Source of the DNA: Thermoplasmatota archaeon
GTDB taxonomy: Archaea; Thermoplasmatota; E2; DHVEG-1
Direction: 5' to 3'
Length of the DNA: 7,693 nucleotides
Assembly: GCA_030615845.1 (NCBI GenBank)
Contig: JAUWYM010000031.1
Coordinates: 1-7,693 of the forward strand
Position 1 is the first letter of the stretch, and every line of letters begins with the position of its first letter. Of this stretch, positions 1,556 through 6,123 are shown in pieces. The position numbers and the translations under genes were made by a program. A model generated the notes under the pieces. The model saw nothing but the letters and a program-made list of their open reading frames with translations. It did not search any database and had not been told where the DNA came from.

Positions 1556-3451
1556 TCAATCTGGATATCCACCTATTTTAAGACTTGGATCTCCAAGAAG
1601 CGCCCATTGCTGAACGATTTTACAGTCGATTTGATCATCCATTGGTGGAAACTCGTTGAGATAATAGATTAAATCCATTCCATGAGTTTCTCCAAGGACT
1701 TCATATCCATCACTGTAACTCTTGAAAAAATTCATTTCCATGACTCGCCCTCTACTCTGGTTCCAATCAGCTCCTGAGGCTCCGTATCCAAGTCCAGTAT
1801 TGGCAATAATTGCGATACATCCGCCACCCTTCTTGTTTGCCATAGACCATGCCCAACAACGTGGGATCCATTCTCTGTACCAAAAATCTCCAAATGGTTG
1901 TTCTGTACTAAAGTACTGCATTCCATCTTCGATAATTCCCTTTAAGATGTTTGAGAGACTAACATTGTATTGTGCATTGTGACATCCACCGACAATTGTT
2001 ACAGGAAGTCTCTCTTTGTTTCGCATTTTAATCATATCAAAAGAACTTGGACCATCTACCCATTCGTCTTCTTCATTTGGTGGATGGTTACTCCATACGT
2101 TAGGGTTGCCATGTCCTGAGAAATGTAAAAATCCACATCCTTGGCTGATCTCATTTATAACATCTTCTTTTCCTGTGAAGCGTCCATTGGATGTCCAAAT
2201 AAATGATGATTCAAAGCCAAGAGGTTCAAGATAATCAAATGATCCTTGTGTTGCAAGTTCTCCCTCGTAGTATGGATCTCCTGCAGAGGGATATGTATCT
2301 CCAGCAACACCTACAAATTTTTTGACCCAATCCGTTCCATATGCTTCGTTTTCATATTTAATTATCTTATTTACTACGGTTTTGACTTCAAATCTTGTTC
2401 TGCAGGGAAGTCGACCAACATACACCTCAGGATACATATCAATAATGTCTTTAGTCATTCCATCCCATTCTGCAAAGATACCGTTTTCATTAGAATCCCA
2501 ACTTGAAAAATTACCTAAATCATCATAAATATCTGCAAAGTAAAGATCAGTTAAATATGATCCTTCTCCACCATCGTCTAGATGTGAATATCGTACAGGA
2601 ACATACCATTTTTCTTCCATAACTCCACCGGCTCTTCCCCCAACAAGCATAACATATTTTATCCCCCATTCATCAAAGGCGTTTTTAATGAAATATTTAA
2701 GCTCTTCTGCACAATCTCTACCTTCTAATGGAAAATACGTACCATCATTTATCTCATTTAAAGTCACTAAAATAGTGGAAACTCCGCAATCAATTTTATG
2801 ATCAACAAGTGGTTGAAGAGAAGTGGAAAACTTTGATGGAGAAATAATTAGTAGATCATACTCATCAGCTAATACAACTGGACTGTCGGGAGCTTCATAA
2901 ATTATTTTTATATCGGCATTGTCTGCATAATAGATTGTATCTTTTGATGAATCATATTGAATAGGGTACATTTTTACGGATAAGTAACAAATCAATTCGT
3001 CTCCATACCTGCCTGCACCAACATTGAATGAATATGTTTCTTTTGGAAACAATCCCATTGGATAGATTTGTTTGCTATCCTGAACTGATGGAGAGAGAAA
3101 TCTATTGTAAATATCTGGTATCGGTTGTGATGCTATCTGAACTTTTTTTGATACTTTTTGTTCAGTTACATCTGAAAAAATAACATCAACATTTTCAATA
3201 GTCGTTCCAAAAGAAAAGCGATAAACACGGGTGACAGTAGGTAGAACGAAGTTATCTGGATCCATTCGATAGGAGGTTGCCTCTTCAAGAGTTACTCCAA
3301 TATACTCGTTCATGTCTTGTATTTGAGGAGCAGAAAAAGAAATTGACTCTGATTTCTCCAATGTTTCATGCTCGTTTACAGGTAATGCAGCAGCTCCAAA
3401 TCCGCTAATGATTAATATCGATACTATTCCGATTATTATACTTTTTTTCAT
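1556..3451 (-). CDS. Secreted gingipain-like cysteine endopeptidase (family C25)
   Basis: The protein has 631 residues. Residues 1 to about 22 are a signal peptide ending GFGAAA. Residues about 25-190 resemble the C25 propeptide. The caspase-fold catalytic domain runs from about 196 (EYDLLIISPSKF) to the end. The catalytic dyad is visible as H447 in HFSGHGNP and C490 in IVGGCHNAQYN, matching the GHG and Cys motifs of gingipains. DLYFADIYD (302-310) and DSNENGIFAEWD (319-330) resemble the gingipain calcium-binding region. The chain stops right after LLGDPSLKIGGYP, the usual end of the catalytic unit, so there is no visible Ig, PKD or membrane anchor and the enzyme is probably released. Arg or Lys specificity cannot be assigned. 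The ATG is preceded by GGGG eight bases upstream and by a TATA box about 40 bases upstream. It is the first gene of the peptidase locus. Confidence 0.93.
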   Translation of the reverse strand: MKKSIIIGIVSILIISGFGAAALPVNEHETLEKSESISFSAPQIQDMNEYIGVTLEEATSYRMDPDNFVLPTVTRVYRFSFGTTIENVDVIFSDVTEQKVSKKVQIASQPIPDIYNRFLSPSVQDSKQIYPMGLFPKETYSFNVGAGRYGDELICYLSVKMYPIQYDSSKDTIYYADNADIKIIYEAPDSPVVLADEYDLLIISPSKFSTSLQPLVDHKIDCGVSTILVTLNEINDGTYFPLEGRDCAEELKYFIKNAFDEWGIKYVMLVGGRAGGVMEEKWYVPVRYSHLDDGGEGSYLTDLYFADIYDDLGNFSSWDSNENGIFAEWDGMTKDIIDMYPEVYVGRLPCRTRFEVKTVVNKIIKYENEAYGTDWVKKFVGVAGDTYPSAGDPYYEGELATQGSFDYLEPLGFESSFIWTSNGRFTGKEDVINEISQGCGFLHFSGHGNPNVWSNHPPNEEDEWVDGPSSFDMIKMRNKERLPVTIVGGCHNAQYNVSLSNILKGIIEDGMQYFSTEQPFGDFWYREWIPRCWAWSMANKKGGGCIAIIANTGLGYGASGADWNQSRGRVMEMNFFKSYSDGYEVLGETHGMDLIYYLNEFPPMDDQIDCKIVQQWALLGDPSLKIGGYPD

Positions 3452-3459
3452 ATTCGTAT

Positions 3460-3463
3460 CCCC
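3460..3463 (-). promoter_or_regulatory. Weak ribosome binding site of the C25 gene
   Basis: GGGG on the minus strand lies eight bases before the ATG at 3451. It is a short partial match to the anti-Shine-Dalgarno and the only purine-rich candidate for this start. Confidence 0.4.
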
Positions 3464-3488
3464 ATATAGATTATTTATAACGCAGACG

Positions 3489-3498
3489 TATATAAATT
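3489..3498 (-). promoter_or_regulatory. TATA box of the C25 peptidase gene
   Basis: The minus strand reads AATTTATATA, containing TTTATATA, a consensus archaeal TATA box. A start about 25 bases downstream, near 3468, gives a leader of roughly 15-20 bases that still includes the GGGG ribosome site. An A-rich stretch (ACAAAAA) upstream could serve as the BRE. The same octamer occurs upstream of the transporter at 4541-4548. Confidence 0.6.
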
Positions 3499-3540
3499 TT
3501 TGTAATTTAAAGCAGAATATTAAAAATTTTAAAATTAAAC

Positions 3541-3560
3541 ATGAAAATAAAAAAAGAGAT
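3541..3560 (-). terminator. T-rich terminator of the proline-rich gene
   Basis: Just past the TAA stop of the proline-rich gene the minus strand carries CTCTTTTTTTATTTTC. This is an archaeal T-tract terminator and separates the gene from the C25 promoter about 45 bases further on. Confidence 0.5.
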
Positions 3561-3572
3561 GGGAACTATACC

Positions 3573-4220
3573 TTATTCAATTCCCAAAACAAAGAATAGC
3601 AACACAAATCCAGTCGCTGTTTTTTCAACTGAAATTGGAACAGCTTCTGCGTATTCATTGCTTGCTATGGCGAACTGTTCTGATGGTTCATAATATGCTT
3701 CTTGGATTCCTTCTTTTTTTGGAAATGTTTCTAATGTTATTCCACCTGTTTCAATGGGCCCACCAGGATATCTTTGAACGTCTCCAAGTTTTGGTCTATA
3801 GTCAGATGGTGGTCCAGGAGTTCGTCTTTCATCTATTGCTTTCACTACGCTTACTGGTAATCCTAATCTTGCAGCTTTAACTCTTGTCTCAAATTCAGTA
3901 GGGGGAGATGGCCCCGGCTTTGGTCCTATGGGTTCAGAGGGAGCTTCTTTAATAGGAGGAGGCCTTTGTCTTTCATCTATCTTTTTTACTACCTCTACAG
4001 GCAACCCCATTCTTGCAGCTTTAACCCTTGTTTCAAATTCAGTAGGAGGCTTTTCAGTAGGAGATGGTCCTGCTGGTGCAGATCCGGGAGATGGAGCCGC
4101 TTCAGATGGGGGAGATGGTTCGGGTTCAGGCTCCGGCTCTGGTTCAGATGGTGGTGGCATGGGCAATACATATTGTTCTTCGAATTGTCCTGTGTCAGGA
4201 TTCCAGACCATTCTTCCCAT
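3573..4220 (-). CDS. Proline-rich protein of unknown function with a duplicated 25-residue motif
   Basis: I do not recognise this 215-residue protein. Residues 1-20 (MGRMVWNPDTGQFEEQYVLP) carry no signal peptide. Residues 21-57 are a Pro/Glu/Ser/Ala linker with a (PE) run. A 25-residue motif, T-E-F-E-T-R-V-K-A-A-R-x-G-L-P-V-x-V-V-K-x-I-D-E-R, occurs at 60-84 and again at 108-132, with 22 of 25 residues identical, separated by a proline-rich linker. The rest is low complexity, ending in a short hydrophobic stretch TGFVLLFFVLGIE (203-215). The two DNA copies differ at six silent third positions but give only three amino-acid changes, which supports this frame. AAAGGAGAG (4227-4235) gives a strong ribosome site with an eight-base spacer from GGAG. 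Motif helices on flexible linkers suggest a scaffold or a binding-site carrier, which is inference. Confidence 0.75.
   Translation of the reverse strand: MGRMVWNPDTGQFEEQYVLPMPPPSEPEPEPEPEPSPPSEAAPSPGSAPAGPSPTEKPPTEFETRVKAARMGLPVEVVKKIDERQRPPPIKEAPSEPIGPKPGPSPPTEFETRVKAARLGLPVSVVKAIDERRTPGPPSDYRPKLGDVQRYPGGPIETGGITLETFPKKEGIQEAYYEPSEQFAIASNEYAEAVPISVEKTATGFVLLFFVLGIE
3825..3899 (-). repeat. Second copy of the 75-base coding repeat
   Basis: It encodes residues 108-132 of the proline-rich protein. It matches the copy at 3969-4043 at 61 of 75 bases, and the copies lie 144 bases (48 codons) apart, so they arose by internal duplication. Six of the differences are silent third-position changes. 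Confidence 0.8.
3969..4043 (-). repeat. First copy of the 75-base coding repeat
   Basis: It encodes residues 60-84 of the proline-rich protein. The differences from the other copy are M/L, E/S and K/A plus silent changes, so the charged and hydrophobic core of the motif is kept. Confidence 0.8.
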
Positions 4221-4370: not shown

Positions 4371-4523
4371 TTAATTTTACCGTCATTTTGCTCCACGTGG
4401 CCAGCTGGATCTTATTCATTATGCCGTCAAATTGATGCACCGGGTGCAGCTGCAGCAACATGTTTTGCCGTCATTTTAGTGATCACAATATCTTGATCAC
4501 TGATTGTTTTGACGGTAAATTAA
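4371..4523. repeat. Periodic CCGTCA array bounded by inverted repeats
   Basis: CCGTCA starts at 4380, 4424 and 4468, exactly 44 bases apart, in the wider context ttttRCCGTCAwwTTR. A fourth copy is inverted (TGACGG, 4510-4515). Each 44-base unit holds short palindromes a few bases after the motif: CCACGTGG and CCAGCTGG in unit 1, TGCACCGGGTGCA and TGCAGCTGCA in unit 2, and AGTGATCA/TGATCACT arms in unit 3. The outermost copies form an inverted pair, TTAA(T)TTTACCGTCA against TGACGGTAAATTAA, 14 bp with one bulged T. The block lies 18 bases upstream of a TATA box for the transporter. It could be a regulator array, a small structured RNA or a MITE-like element, and I cannot choose between them. 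Confidence 0.6.
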
Positions 4524-4674: not shown

Positions 4675-6123
4675 TTGGAAAAAGATACTGAAAAAATGGA
4701 GGAAGAATACAAGGTAATAAAAGGAAAAAGTCCTACTCTTTCTAAGAGAAATATCTTGTTTATTGCTGTTGCCTTTTTAGTTGTAGTACTATTTTATTTT
4801 CTACCCATTCCAGAAGGTTTATCGAATAATGGTAAAATGATGATTGGTATTCTTCTCATGGGAGGTATTCTTTGGATTACAGAACCCATACCGCTTGCTG
4901 TTACTGGCCTCTTGATAATTATAATTCAACCAATACTGGGTATCATGCCTGCGGGAGATGTTTTCTCCTCATTTGGAAATCAGGCAGTATTTTTCTTGAT
5001 AGGCGCATTTATCCTTGCTGGTGCTTTAGAAAAACATGGACTGCATAAAAGAATAGCATTGAAATTTCTTAGTTTTTTTGAAAAAAACCCTAAACTGTTT
5101 ACCTTTGGAATAATGATTTCCTGTGCATTTTTATCGTTTATTATGCCTGAACATGGTGTCGCTGCTATGTTTTTACCTATTGTAATATCGATTCTTATCG
5201 CCATGAAAATAACACCGAGAAAAAGCAATTTTGGAATAGTAAGCATGTTAAGCATCGCATATGGATGCTCGATTGGCAGTCTTGGTACACTTATCGGTGG
5301 TGCAAGAAACCCTTTAACCATTGGAATGCTTTCAGATATTGGTTATTCTGTATCGTTTTTTGATTGGATGACGTATTCCATGCCTATCGTATTTATTTCC
5401 TTACCTTTGGTTTGGCTTATTTTACACATCTCTTTCCCCATAGAAATTAAAAATATCGCATCTGCCAAAACAGAGATTAACCGCCAAGTAAGTAGATCAG
5501 GGAAGATGGGGAGATACGAACTAACGGTTTTGTGTATTGTCGTGCTCACCATTATTCTTTGGATTTTTGTTTCATCACCAACGTATTTTAGTCTTGCAGT
5601 CATTGCAATACTTGGCAGCATCCTCTTATTTTTCACAGGATGCATCACCTGGAAGGATGTTGAACAAAGGGTTCCTTGGGGAATCATATTACTTTATGGT
5701 GGAGCGATAACGCTTGGTATTGGTATGCAAAAAACTGGTGCTGGATCTTGGATAGCTCACCGACTATTTGATGTGACAGGAAATAACCCATATCTCGTTA
5801 TATTTGGACTCATAATTCTTACTGTTCTGCTCACAAATATTATGTCAAATGTAGGAGCCGTAGCGATATTATTGCCCATAGGGCTTGCAATAGCAACGGA
5901 GGTTCCTGGAGTAAGTCCACTTCTTGCTTCAATGCTAATAGCGCTTAGTGGGGGCTTGGCATTTATATTTATTATTGCTACACCAGGTAATGCTATCGCC
6001 TATTCCTCAGGATATTTTTCAAGCAGGGATTTACTGAAAGCAGGAGTTGTAGCAAATATTGCATGTATTGGAGTAATTTTTCTTGTAGCAATCATCTATT
6101 GGAAAGGAGTGTTGAATTTATGA
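4675..6123 (+). CDS. SLC13/DASS-family anion or dicarboxylate transporter
   Basis: The protein has 482 residues, with about 23 charged cytoplasmic residues followed by roughly a dozen hydrophobic membrane segments. Family landmarks are WITEPIPLAVTGLL (67-80), GTLIGGARNP (204-213), the second-half sodium-site motif SNVGAVAILLPI (391-402) and TPGNAIAYSSGYFSSRDLLKAG (436-457). These fit SLC13/DASS carriers, which move dicarboxylates, citrate, sulfate or similar anions, usually with sodium. The matching first-half motif, SNT in well-studied members, reads PEHG here (158-161, FIMPEHGVAAMFLPI), so sodium coupling and substrate are open. The start is TTG with an SD-like purine stretch. The UspA gene follows after 48 bases, and such pairs often reflect regulation of the carrier by the Usp protein. 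Family is confident, substrate is not assignable. Confidence 0.87.
   Translation: MEKDTEKMEEEYKVIKGKSPTLSKRNILFIAVAFLVVVLFYFLPIPEGLSNNGKMMIGILLMGGILWITEPIPLAVTGLLIIIIQPILGIMPAGDVFSSFGNQAVFFLIGAFILAGALEKHGLHKRIALKFLSFFEKNPKLFTFGIMISCAFLSFIMPEHGVAAMFLPIVISILIAMKITPRKSNFGIVSMLSIAYGCSIGSLGTLIGGARNPLTIGMLSDIGYSVSFFDWMTYSMPIVFISLPLVWLILHISFPIEIKNIASAKTEINRQVSRSGKMGRYELTVLCIVVLTIILWIFVSSPTYFSLAVIAILGSILLFFTGCITWKDVEQRVPWGIILLYGGAITLGIGMQKTGAGSWIAHRLFDVTGNNPYLVIFGLIILTVLLTNIMSNVGAVAILLPIGLAIATEVPGVSPLLASMLIALSGGLAFIFIIATPGNAIAYSSGYFSSRDLLKAGVVANIACIGVIFLVAIIYWKGVLNL

Follow-up and report, generated by a model that had tools for sequence, protein, structure and literature searches.

Arrays of a near-palindromic octamer on a 44-bp dyad frame, with palindromic spacers, in a family of Thermoplasmatota

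Introduction

In the intergenic region between two divergent genes of a Thermoplasmatota archaeon (GenBank assembly GCA_030615845.1), copies of the hexamer CCGTCA follow each other at a constant distance, with self-complementary sequence between them. This raises the question of what kind of element has such an architecture, and whether it belongs to the neighboring genes or to something that moves between genomes. The window, i.e. the whole stretch of 7,693 nucleotides analyzed here, is the entire contig JAUWYM010000031.1 (C147) of a 1.05-Mb genome that is 73% complete (G000). From left to right it contains, on the minus strand, a partial gene that starts at 181, genes for an M28 and a C25 peptidase, and a proline-rich orphan ORF (3573-4220), followed on the plus strand by genes for a DASS-type (Na_sulph_symp) transporter (4675-6123) and a universal stress protein and, again on the minus strand, by a gene for a Big_7 protein. 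The array lies midway between the orphan ORF and the transporter gene, around 155 bp from both start codons. The orphan ORF has matches in 1 of 99 genomes, namely its own, and only two database proteins were retrieved with it, one of them nearly identical to the query itself; its product has two copies of a TEFETRVKAARxGLPVxVVKxIDER-like stretch. A literature search covering titles and the opening parts of abstracts returned no description of this array.

Results

The array in the window

CCGTCA is present in four copies in the window, all of them inside 136 bp: three on the plus strand, starting at 4380, 4424 and 4468, and one on the minus strand at 4510-4515. At least four copies anywhere were obtained in 2 of 200 shuffles of the window, and CCGTCA was the sole hexamer with at least four G/C found in the window in three equally spaced copies (periods 15-100), any such triple appearing in 1 of 500 dinucleotide shuffles. 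The exact 44-base intervals between direct copies described in the initial annotation were confirmed, and its listing has to be completed with the inverted fourth copy, the center of which falls on the same frame. The hexamer is part of the 8-mer TRCCGTCA, which can be read as a near-palindrome (TGCC|GTCA) with its near-dyad between CC and GT. Site 1 (4378-4385, plus strand, center 4381.5) is TACCGTCA, sites 2 (4422-4429, plus strand, center 4425.5) and 3 (4466-4473, plus strand, center 4469.5) are TGCCGTCA, and site 4 (4510-4517, minus strand, center 4513.5) reads TGACGGTA on the plus strand, the inner two sites thus being of the TGCCGTCA kind and the outer two of the TACCGTCA kind. Despite the inversion of the last copy, the steps between dyad centers are 44, 44 and 44 bp. 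The whole intergenic element, with four sites and three spacers, spans 146 bp (4375-4520), as delimited by the motif positions and by the homology to an array in contig C4 of the related genome G033, which begins at its edge. Its G+C content is 42%, versus 23% in the remaining intergenic region.

A listing of palindromes gave CCACGTGG, TGGCCA, CCAGCTGG and GATC in spacer 1 (4386-4421), TGCAGCTGCA, GCTGCAGC and AACATGTT in spacer 2 (4430-4465) and GTGATCAC and TGATCA in spacer 3 (4474-4509). Together the spacers hold eight 6-bp palindromes, versus 2.1 expected, a number reached by none of 1000 shuffles. This excess is relative to composition-matched shuffles, the raw density being no higher in the array (8 in 146 bp) than in the remaining intergenic region (14 in 308 bp). 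A clear hairpin fold was obtained for spacer 3 only (z -4.0 and -3.7, versus 0.1 to 1.1 for the other two), so that the proposed palindrome in every spacer stands as self-complementarity, mainly in the form of loopless palindromes, and as a hairpin in that spacer alone.

Distribution in related genomes

The motif at a 44-base period was sought in related genomes, as had been suggested, and ten more arrays were found in four relatives of the same family. The 11 arrays in five genomes are W (the window, G000), 33a, 33b and 33c (G033), 10a to 10d (G010), 37a and 37b (G037) and 11 (G011). When 99 relatives were searched at the DNA level, 76 genomes had matches at E ≤ 1; those in G033, G010 and G037 were followed and most of the others were taken as chance. 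A profile (R1) made from 17 of the first 18 units of 44 bp was run on 80 genomes of the class, with search filters that lose some weak matches, and it identified arrays in five of them: G000, G010, G033 and G037, from which it had been built, and G011, which was new. Because R1 was built from 44-bp units, it favors finding this period. The last site of 10a, with one mismatch, was kept in the counts, while a 59-bp interval in L071 (its left site is inside an ORF) and a degenerate 43-bp pair in G011 (one site mismatched) were left out; a weak R1 match in contig C395 of G005, with a single exact site, was rejected as an array. When a two-site pattern for one kind of unit was searched in species genomes, 45 stretches were retrieved, five of which (six units) were the known Thermoplasmatota contigs; in the other 40, judged by the matching unit and its palindromes only, these were unlike the array family. 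In G037, CCGTCA also forms irregularly spaced clusters (C11, 16555-16884; C86, 7585-7676), frequently as AGCCGTCA, which constitute a different repeat.

Genome-wide, AT-flanked TGCCGTCA was located inside arrays in 12 of 12 cases in G010 and three of three in G037, in seven of 11 in G033 (four outside) and in two of three in G000, where the third is in a coding frame at the contig edge; G004 has six copies and no array. A genome-wide site for a host regulator was discarded in view of this confinement, complete in G010 and G037 and predominant in G033 and G000. A viral origin of the arrays was also discarded, given that searches of IMG/VR with exact two-site patterns produced 2 and 0 matches, the two not being array-like. 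Among the 80 loci listed for a single 15-mer in viral contigs, R1 found 46 matches, all of them weak and most of them partial, the best with 17.9 bits.

A frame set by the dyad

The 28 intervals between dyad centers in the 11 arrays comprise 21 of 44 bp, three of 43 bp and four of 54 bp, the large change in spacing being 10 bp, and a scan for exact sites at any distance up to 60 bp returned the same 43, 44 and 54 inside arrays. The 44-bp intervals are found in every relative orientation (++ 7, -- 4, +- 7 and -+ 3), for which the raw distances between hexamer starts are 44, 44, 42 and 46, respectively. Since these raw distances vary with orientation while the centers remain 44 bp apart, it is the dyad that defines the frame. 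In nine of the 11 arrays the outermost sites are directed inward (1.3e-4 if each end were random), the exceptions being 33b (++++) and 37a (---).

A repeated dyad-symmetric site with helix-phased spacing, as would characterize a phased array for dimer binding, is therefore what is observed. The helical phase of the intervals gave R values of 0.97-0.98 for repeats of 10.0 to 11.0 bp, which is partly trivial, most intervals being equal. With 10.5 bp per turn, each step exceeds whole turns by 1.8 bp; with 10.8 the excess is 0.6 bp, and with 11.0 the step falls 0.2 bp short. The sites share one face of the helix strictly only near 10.8-11 bp per turn, so "one face" is an approximation. The idea of a regulator array acting on one DNA face consequently gains from the base-exact dyad spacing in any orientation and from the 10-bp size of the large change, and is weakened by the roughly 2 bp that separate 44 bp from whole turns at 10.5.

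Loopless palindromes in the spacers

In a set of 23 spacers, 52 palindromes of 6 bp (12.3 expected) and 22 of 8 bp (3.3 expected) were counted, neither number being reached in 1000 shuffles, whereas the flanks used as control showed no excess (29 of 6 bp, 32.9 expected). These counts are not independent, as spacers are related by descent and two of the 23 (37a.2 and 37b.3) are one unit in opposite orientation. Common words are CTGCAG, AGATCT, CAGCTG, TCTAGA, TGATCA, CCATGG, GACGTC and GGATCC. Centers of palindromes of at least 6 bp are most frequent at positions 17 and 27 of the 44-bp unit, around 5-6 bp from the middle of the spacer, in a picture that is symmetric by construction because centers were counted from both unit ends.

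When inverted repeats with arms of 3 were evaluated in 28 spacers, z values were 14.6 for loop 0, 2.5 for loop 1 and 5.1 for loop 2, and there was no excess with loops of 3-16 (z -1.9 to 1.3 for arms of 3, at most 1.5 for arms of 4). Folding of the same spacers compared with shuffles gave mean z values of +0.15 and +0.06 on the two strands. A perfect loopless palindrome cannot be a hairpin, and the signal therefore belongs to duplex DNA. We regard the exact frame and the loopless palindromes as firmly established.

In 12 pairs of related units with at least 77% identity, 40 palindromes stay, six are replaced in place by another palindrome (e.g. CTGCAG/GATATC and TGATCA/GCCGGC) and 15 are lost. 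Palindrome-to-palindrome changes are therefore six of the 21 changed (29%), versus 5% by random change, the six being both directions of three events. With a stricter set (nine pairs, 80% identity), two of 13 changed palindromes became another palindrome, versus 4% expected.

The window locus in relatives

Five genomes of genus g7 have the transporter, at 79-84% protein identity, and DNA similar to that of the window (71-73%) from 4586 or 4596 on. At these loci, up to around 1.5 kb upstream of the transporter, no exact pair of CCGTCA within 60 bp was found in any of the five. The gene content left of the array differs, with an ORF of another kind in L043. Because these relatives keep the transporter without the array, the latter is not a fixed part of the transporter locus, and its role as a fixed regulator of that gene was rejected. 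Relatives with the same flanking gene and no motif, which the initial annotation had named as evidence against its proposal, do exist for this locus; as relatives have conserved motif, period and palindromes at other places, this indicates no more than that the array is not fixed here. When the two flanks were joined and aligned to three of the relatives as a presumed empty site, scores were 57, 50 and 64, with shuffle means of 42.6, 39.1 and 43.5, and remained below the best of 100 shuffles (73, 62 and 65) in all three.

Gene setting and edges of the arrays

Array 33a adjoins a tyrosine recombinase and a protein taken by eye as DNA-binding, in a contig that also encodes an MCM protein and a DnaA-like ATPase; the contig of 33b and 33c carries genes for a tyrosine recombinase and a DnaA-like ATPase, together with a large ORF without family assignment. 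The neighborhood of arrays 10a to 10d includes two tyrosine recombinases as well as an ORF related to the large one, array 11 is near another such relative and recombinases named by eye from translations, and 37a and 37b are near Fic and ion-channel genes. The contig stretches covered were around 21.0 of 24.0 kb in G033:C4, 26.0 of 38.3 in C141, 35.5 of 100.0 in G010:C65, 11.1 of 31.1 in G037:C94 and 15.0 of 21.3 in G011:C45. No recombinase was found in G037:C94 among the eight tested of the 14 ORFs of at least 80 aa, and recombinase genes are present on array contigs in three of the four relatives. These stretches would correspond to mobile islands. No close recombinase is common to the array contigs of G010, G011 and G033, the sole cross-genome match being 25% over 126 aa (G010 to G033).

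Two candidate partners were discarded. The pair formed by the recombinase and the RHH-like/coiled-coil protein beside 33a had no match in the array-bearing genomes G010, G011 and G000. The large ORF (G010, G011 and G033:C141) was matched in 10 of 80 genomes, including some that lack arrays but not G000, and of the three array contigs that share it, it is near the arrays in G010 and G011 only. It is helicase-like by eye only; two members had no Pfam or PHROG match, the one member compared with PDB had no match there, a third showed sub-threshold Pfam matches, and no relatives were found in IMG/VR. As a separate observation, the tyrosine recombinase and its RHH-like/coiled-coil/winged-helix-like partner (domains of the partner assigned by eye) at 2187-3673 of L071 have further copies in G033 and G037, with seven and five matches to the recombinase and seven and eight to the partner.

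According to ORF lists, two of the 11 arrays (33a and 10d) have gene ends on both sides, array 11 overlaps a 129-aa ORF, and placement shows no clear promoter bias. Differences at array edges were detected in two cases. In the first, a flank of 327 bp is common to 33a and 33b (96%); it stops 6 bp short of the first site in 33a, but in 33b it continues into an additional ORF of 169 aa that precedes the array. In the second, 33c resembles 37a in a 57-bp flank (81%) up to the first site and 37b in the array itself (85% over 101 bp), from which it follows that G037 has an array and a 291-aa ORF between flank and array. Such differences are expected from a cassette system, and also from insertion or loss of the array itself. 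Around 60 bp to the right of 33a and 33b are also conserved (L071 4222-4285, L072 3796-3855; AAAATYGMTCTAAAYARAGATTCTGGAC...), and dispersed and tandem repeats of around 50-70 bp, many of them 90-97% alike, were seen near 10b and 10d (G010:C65; L073 around 3160-3820 and 16800-17800).

A candidate binding protein

A small RHH protein of 60-70 aa is encoded on three array contigs, with RHH_1 above the cut-off in one and RHH_1 or RHH_8 below it in two. At E ≤ 1.3e-23 it is present in four of the five array genomes versus none of 40 others (best other 3.2e-7), although three of these four genomes built the query and the independent part of the co-occurrence is G011 alone (p 0.048). It was not found in G000, nor were relatives found in IMG/VR; 84 relatives were retrieved from the protein database at E ≤ 1e-6. 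In G011 its gene is on a different contig from the array, with no array-spaced pair of sites in the 19.5 kb around it. The candidate genes in L074, L073 and G011 are preceded by A+T-rich palindromic repeats, recognized by eye and unlike TGCCGTCA, which speaks against this protein as the binder of the array. A+T-rich palindromic repeats of this type at L074 3130-3200, L363 1380-1480 and L073 461-560 are perhaps the own operators of small RHH genes.

Discussion

The reading we tentatively prefer, with slightly less than even confidence and from sequence analysis, is that these elements may be phased docking arrays for a dimeric protein, the one in the window being a solitary copy. Each copy of the TGCCGTCA type would likely be bound by one dimer of a putative DNA-binding protein, as the dyad frame suggests, and dimers lined up along the double helix could form a nucleoprotein complex, with the spacer palindromes providing further two-fold contacts or being traces of how units formed. 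The arrays might serve mobile islands in the control of genes, replication or partition, and the copy in the window probably came from such an island or is what one left behind; an effect on the two divergent genes beside it would be a guess. Our confidence is slightly lowered because phasing on one face holds only near 10.8-11 bp per turn, each step being around 1.8 bp out of phase at 10.5. Other facts that fit poorly are that the binder is so far an RHH candidate linked by co-occurrence only, that TGCCGTCA also occurs outside arrays (4 of 11 in G033, 1 of 3 in G000, and the six of G004, which has no array), and that arrays show no clear bias toward promoters, array 11 even overlapping an ORF. 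A specific binder would also leave the strong differences between spacer palindromes unexplained.

As an alternative, the arrays might be recombination sites, i.e. joints where a recombinase of the island would insert, excise or invert single genes, in a role like that of integrons or shufflons but with duplex sites, and cutting and joining would take place in their palindromic middles, which vary. The two cases in which DNA ends at an array edge and one gene is present or missing, the outer sites inverted in nine of 11 arrays and the palindromes replaced by others in place (6 of 21, against an expected fraction of 0.05) argue for such a role, which we nevertheless consider rather unlikely: the array contigs of G010, G011 and G033 have no close recombinase in common, none was found among the ORFs tested in G037:C94 (8 of 14), and array insertion or loss explains both edge cases as well. 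In another reading, each array would itself be a non-autonomous, MITE-like miniature element with inverted end sites, and the window copy a simple insertion. The homology between W and 33a starts at the array edge, with no homology found in the flanks, five relatives lack the array at the window locus, and the weak alignment of joined flanks to three of them hints at an empty site. That alignment, however, scored below the best shuffle for all three, no target-site duplication was evident by eye at 33a, 10b, 10d and 37b (W is ambiguous, being A+T-rich), only one to four arrays were found per genome, and a MITE does not need an exact internal 44-bp frame, so we find this explanation improbable.

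Much less probable still is an operator array that regulates both divergent genes of the window, the proline-rich ORF and the transporter. The position midway between their start codons would suit it, but in five relatives of genus g7 the transporter and the DNA upstream of it are retained and the array is absent, and the orphan ORF is found in one of 99 genomes only. As for the multi-hairpin RNA that had been offered as the other option, we give it hardly any credit. The whole 165-bp stretch does fold better than shuffles (z -3.6 on the plus strand and -3.0 on the minus strand), in a fold that relies on the inverted outer sites, on spacer 3 and on base pairing between spacers 1 and 2. Against a structured transcript stand the lack of excess of loops of at least 3 and the mean z around 0 on both strands in 28 spacers, the mixed orientation of sites within arrays and the absence of any Rfam family at gathering score.

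Whichever the function, a DNA grammar as sharp as this, common to more than one genus of the same archaeal family, points to protein machinery devoted to it. If the arrays are docking arrays, as we prefer to think, they could be used to trace a protein for regulation, partition or replication in an archaeal mobilome about which little is known; if they mark gene joints, they would reveal a cassette system built on duplex sites. Taken as a whole, the picture of an element of Thermoplasmatota mobile islands in which palindromic words are swapped as blocks on a 44-bp dyad frame, and arrays act as duplex joints for the gain or loss of single genes, strikes us as unlikely.

Several known systems resemble these arrays in part. 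MITEs of archaea and bacteria, the subject of a review (PMC10969869), are short, non-coding and dispersed, with inverted ends. The arrays are alike in being short, non-coding and dispersed, and have terminal inverted repeats in that outer sites point inward in nine of 11; they differ in their few copies, the lack of target duplications by eye (33a, 10b, 10d and 37b) and their internal sites in a fixed 44-bp frame. Integron attC sites have core boxes GTTRRRY and RYYYAAC. Like them, the arrays are non-coding repeats whose middles are self-complementary, and they lie at the borders of genes in presumably mobile regions, but no match to the core boxes was read by eye in 4375-4520, most single spacers do not fold as hairpins (mean z around 0, 28 spacers) and no integron integrase was identified. 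CRISPR arrays consist of near-identical repeats of around 20-50 bp, in one orientation, with unrelated spacers. The alternation of a constant repeat and a variable spacer of fixed length is similar; the arrays described here depart from CRISPR arrays in having an 8-bp core in both orientations and spacers that are palindromic and related between arrays. In phased multi-site operators and plasmid iterons (e.g. MetJ met boxes, RK2 and P1 iterons), helix-phased short sites are bound by dimers or oligomers. The likeness is in the short, near-palindromic or repeated sites in helix phase, and what sets the present arrays apart is their period of 44, the 36-bp spacers full of varied palindromes, the mixed orientation of sites on one dyad frame and the presence of several arrays per genome.
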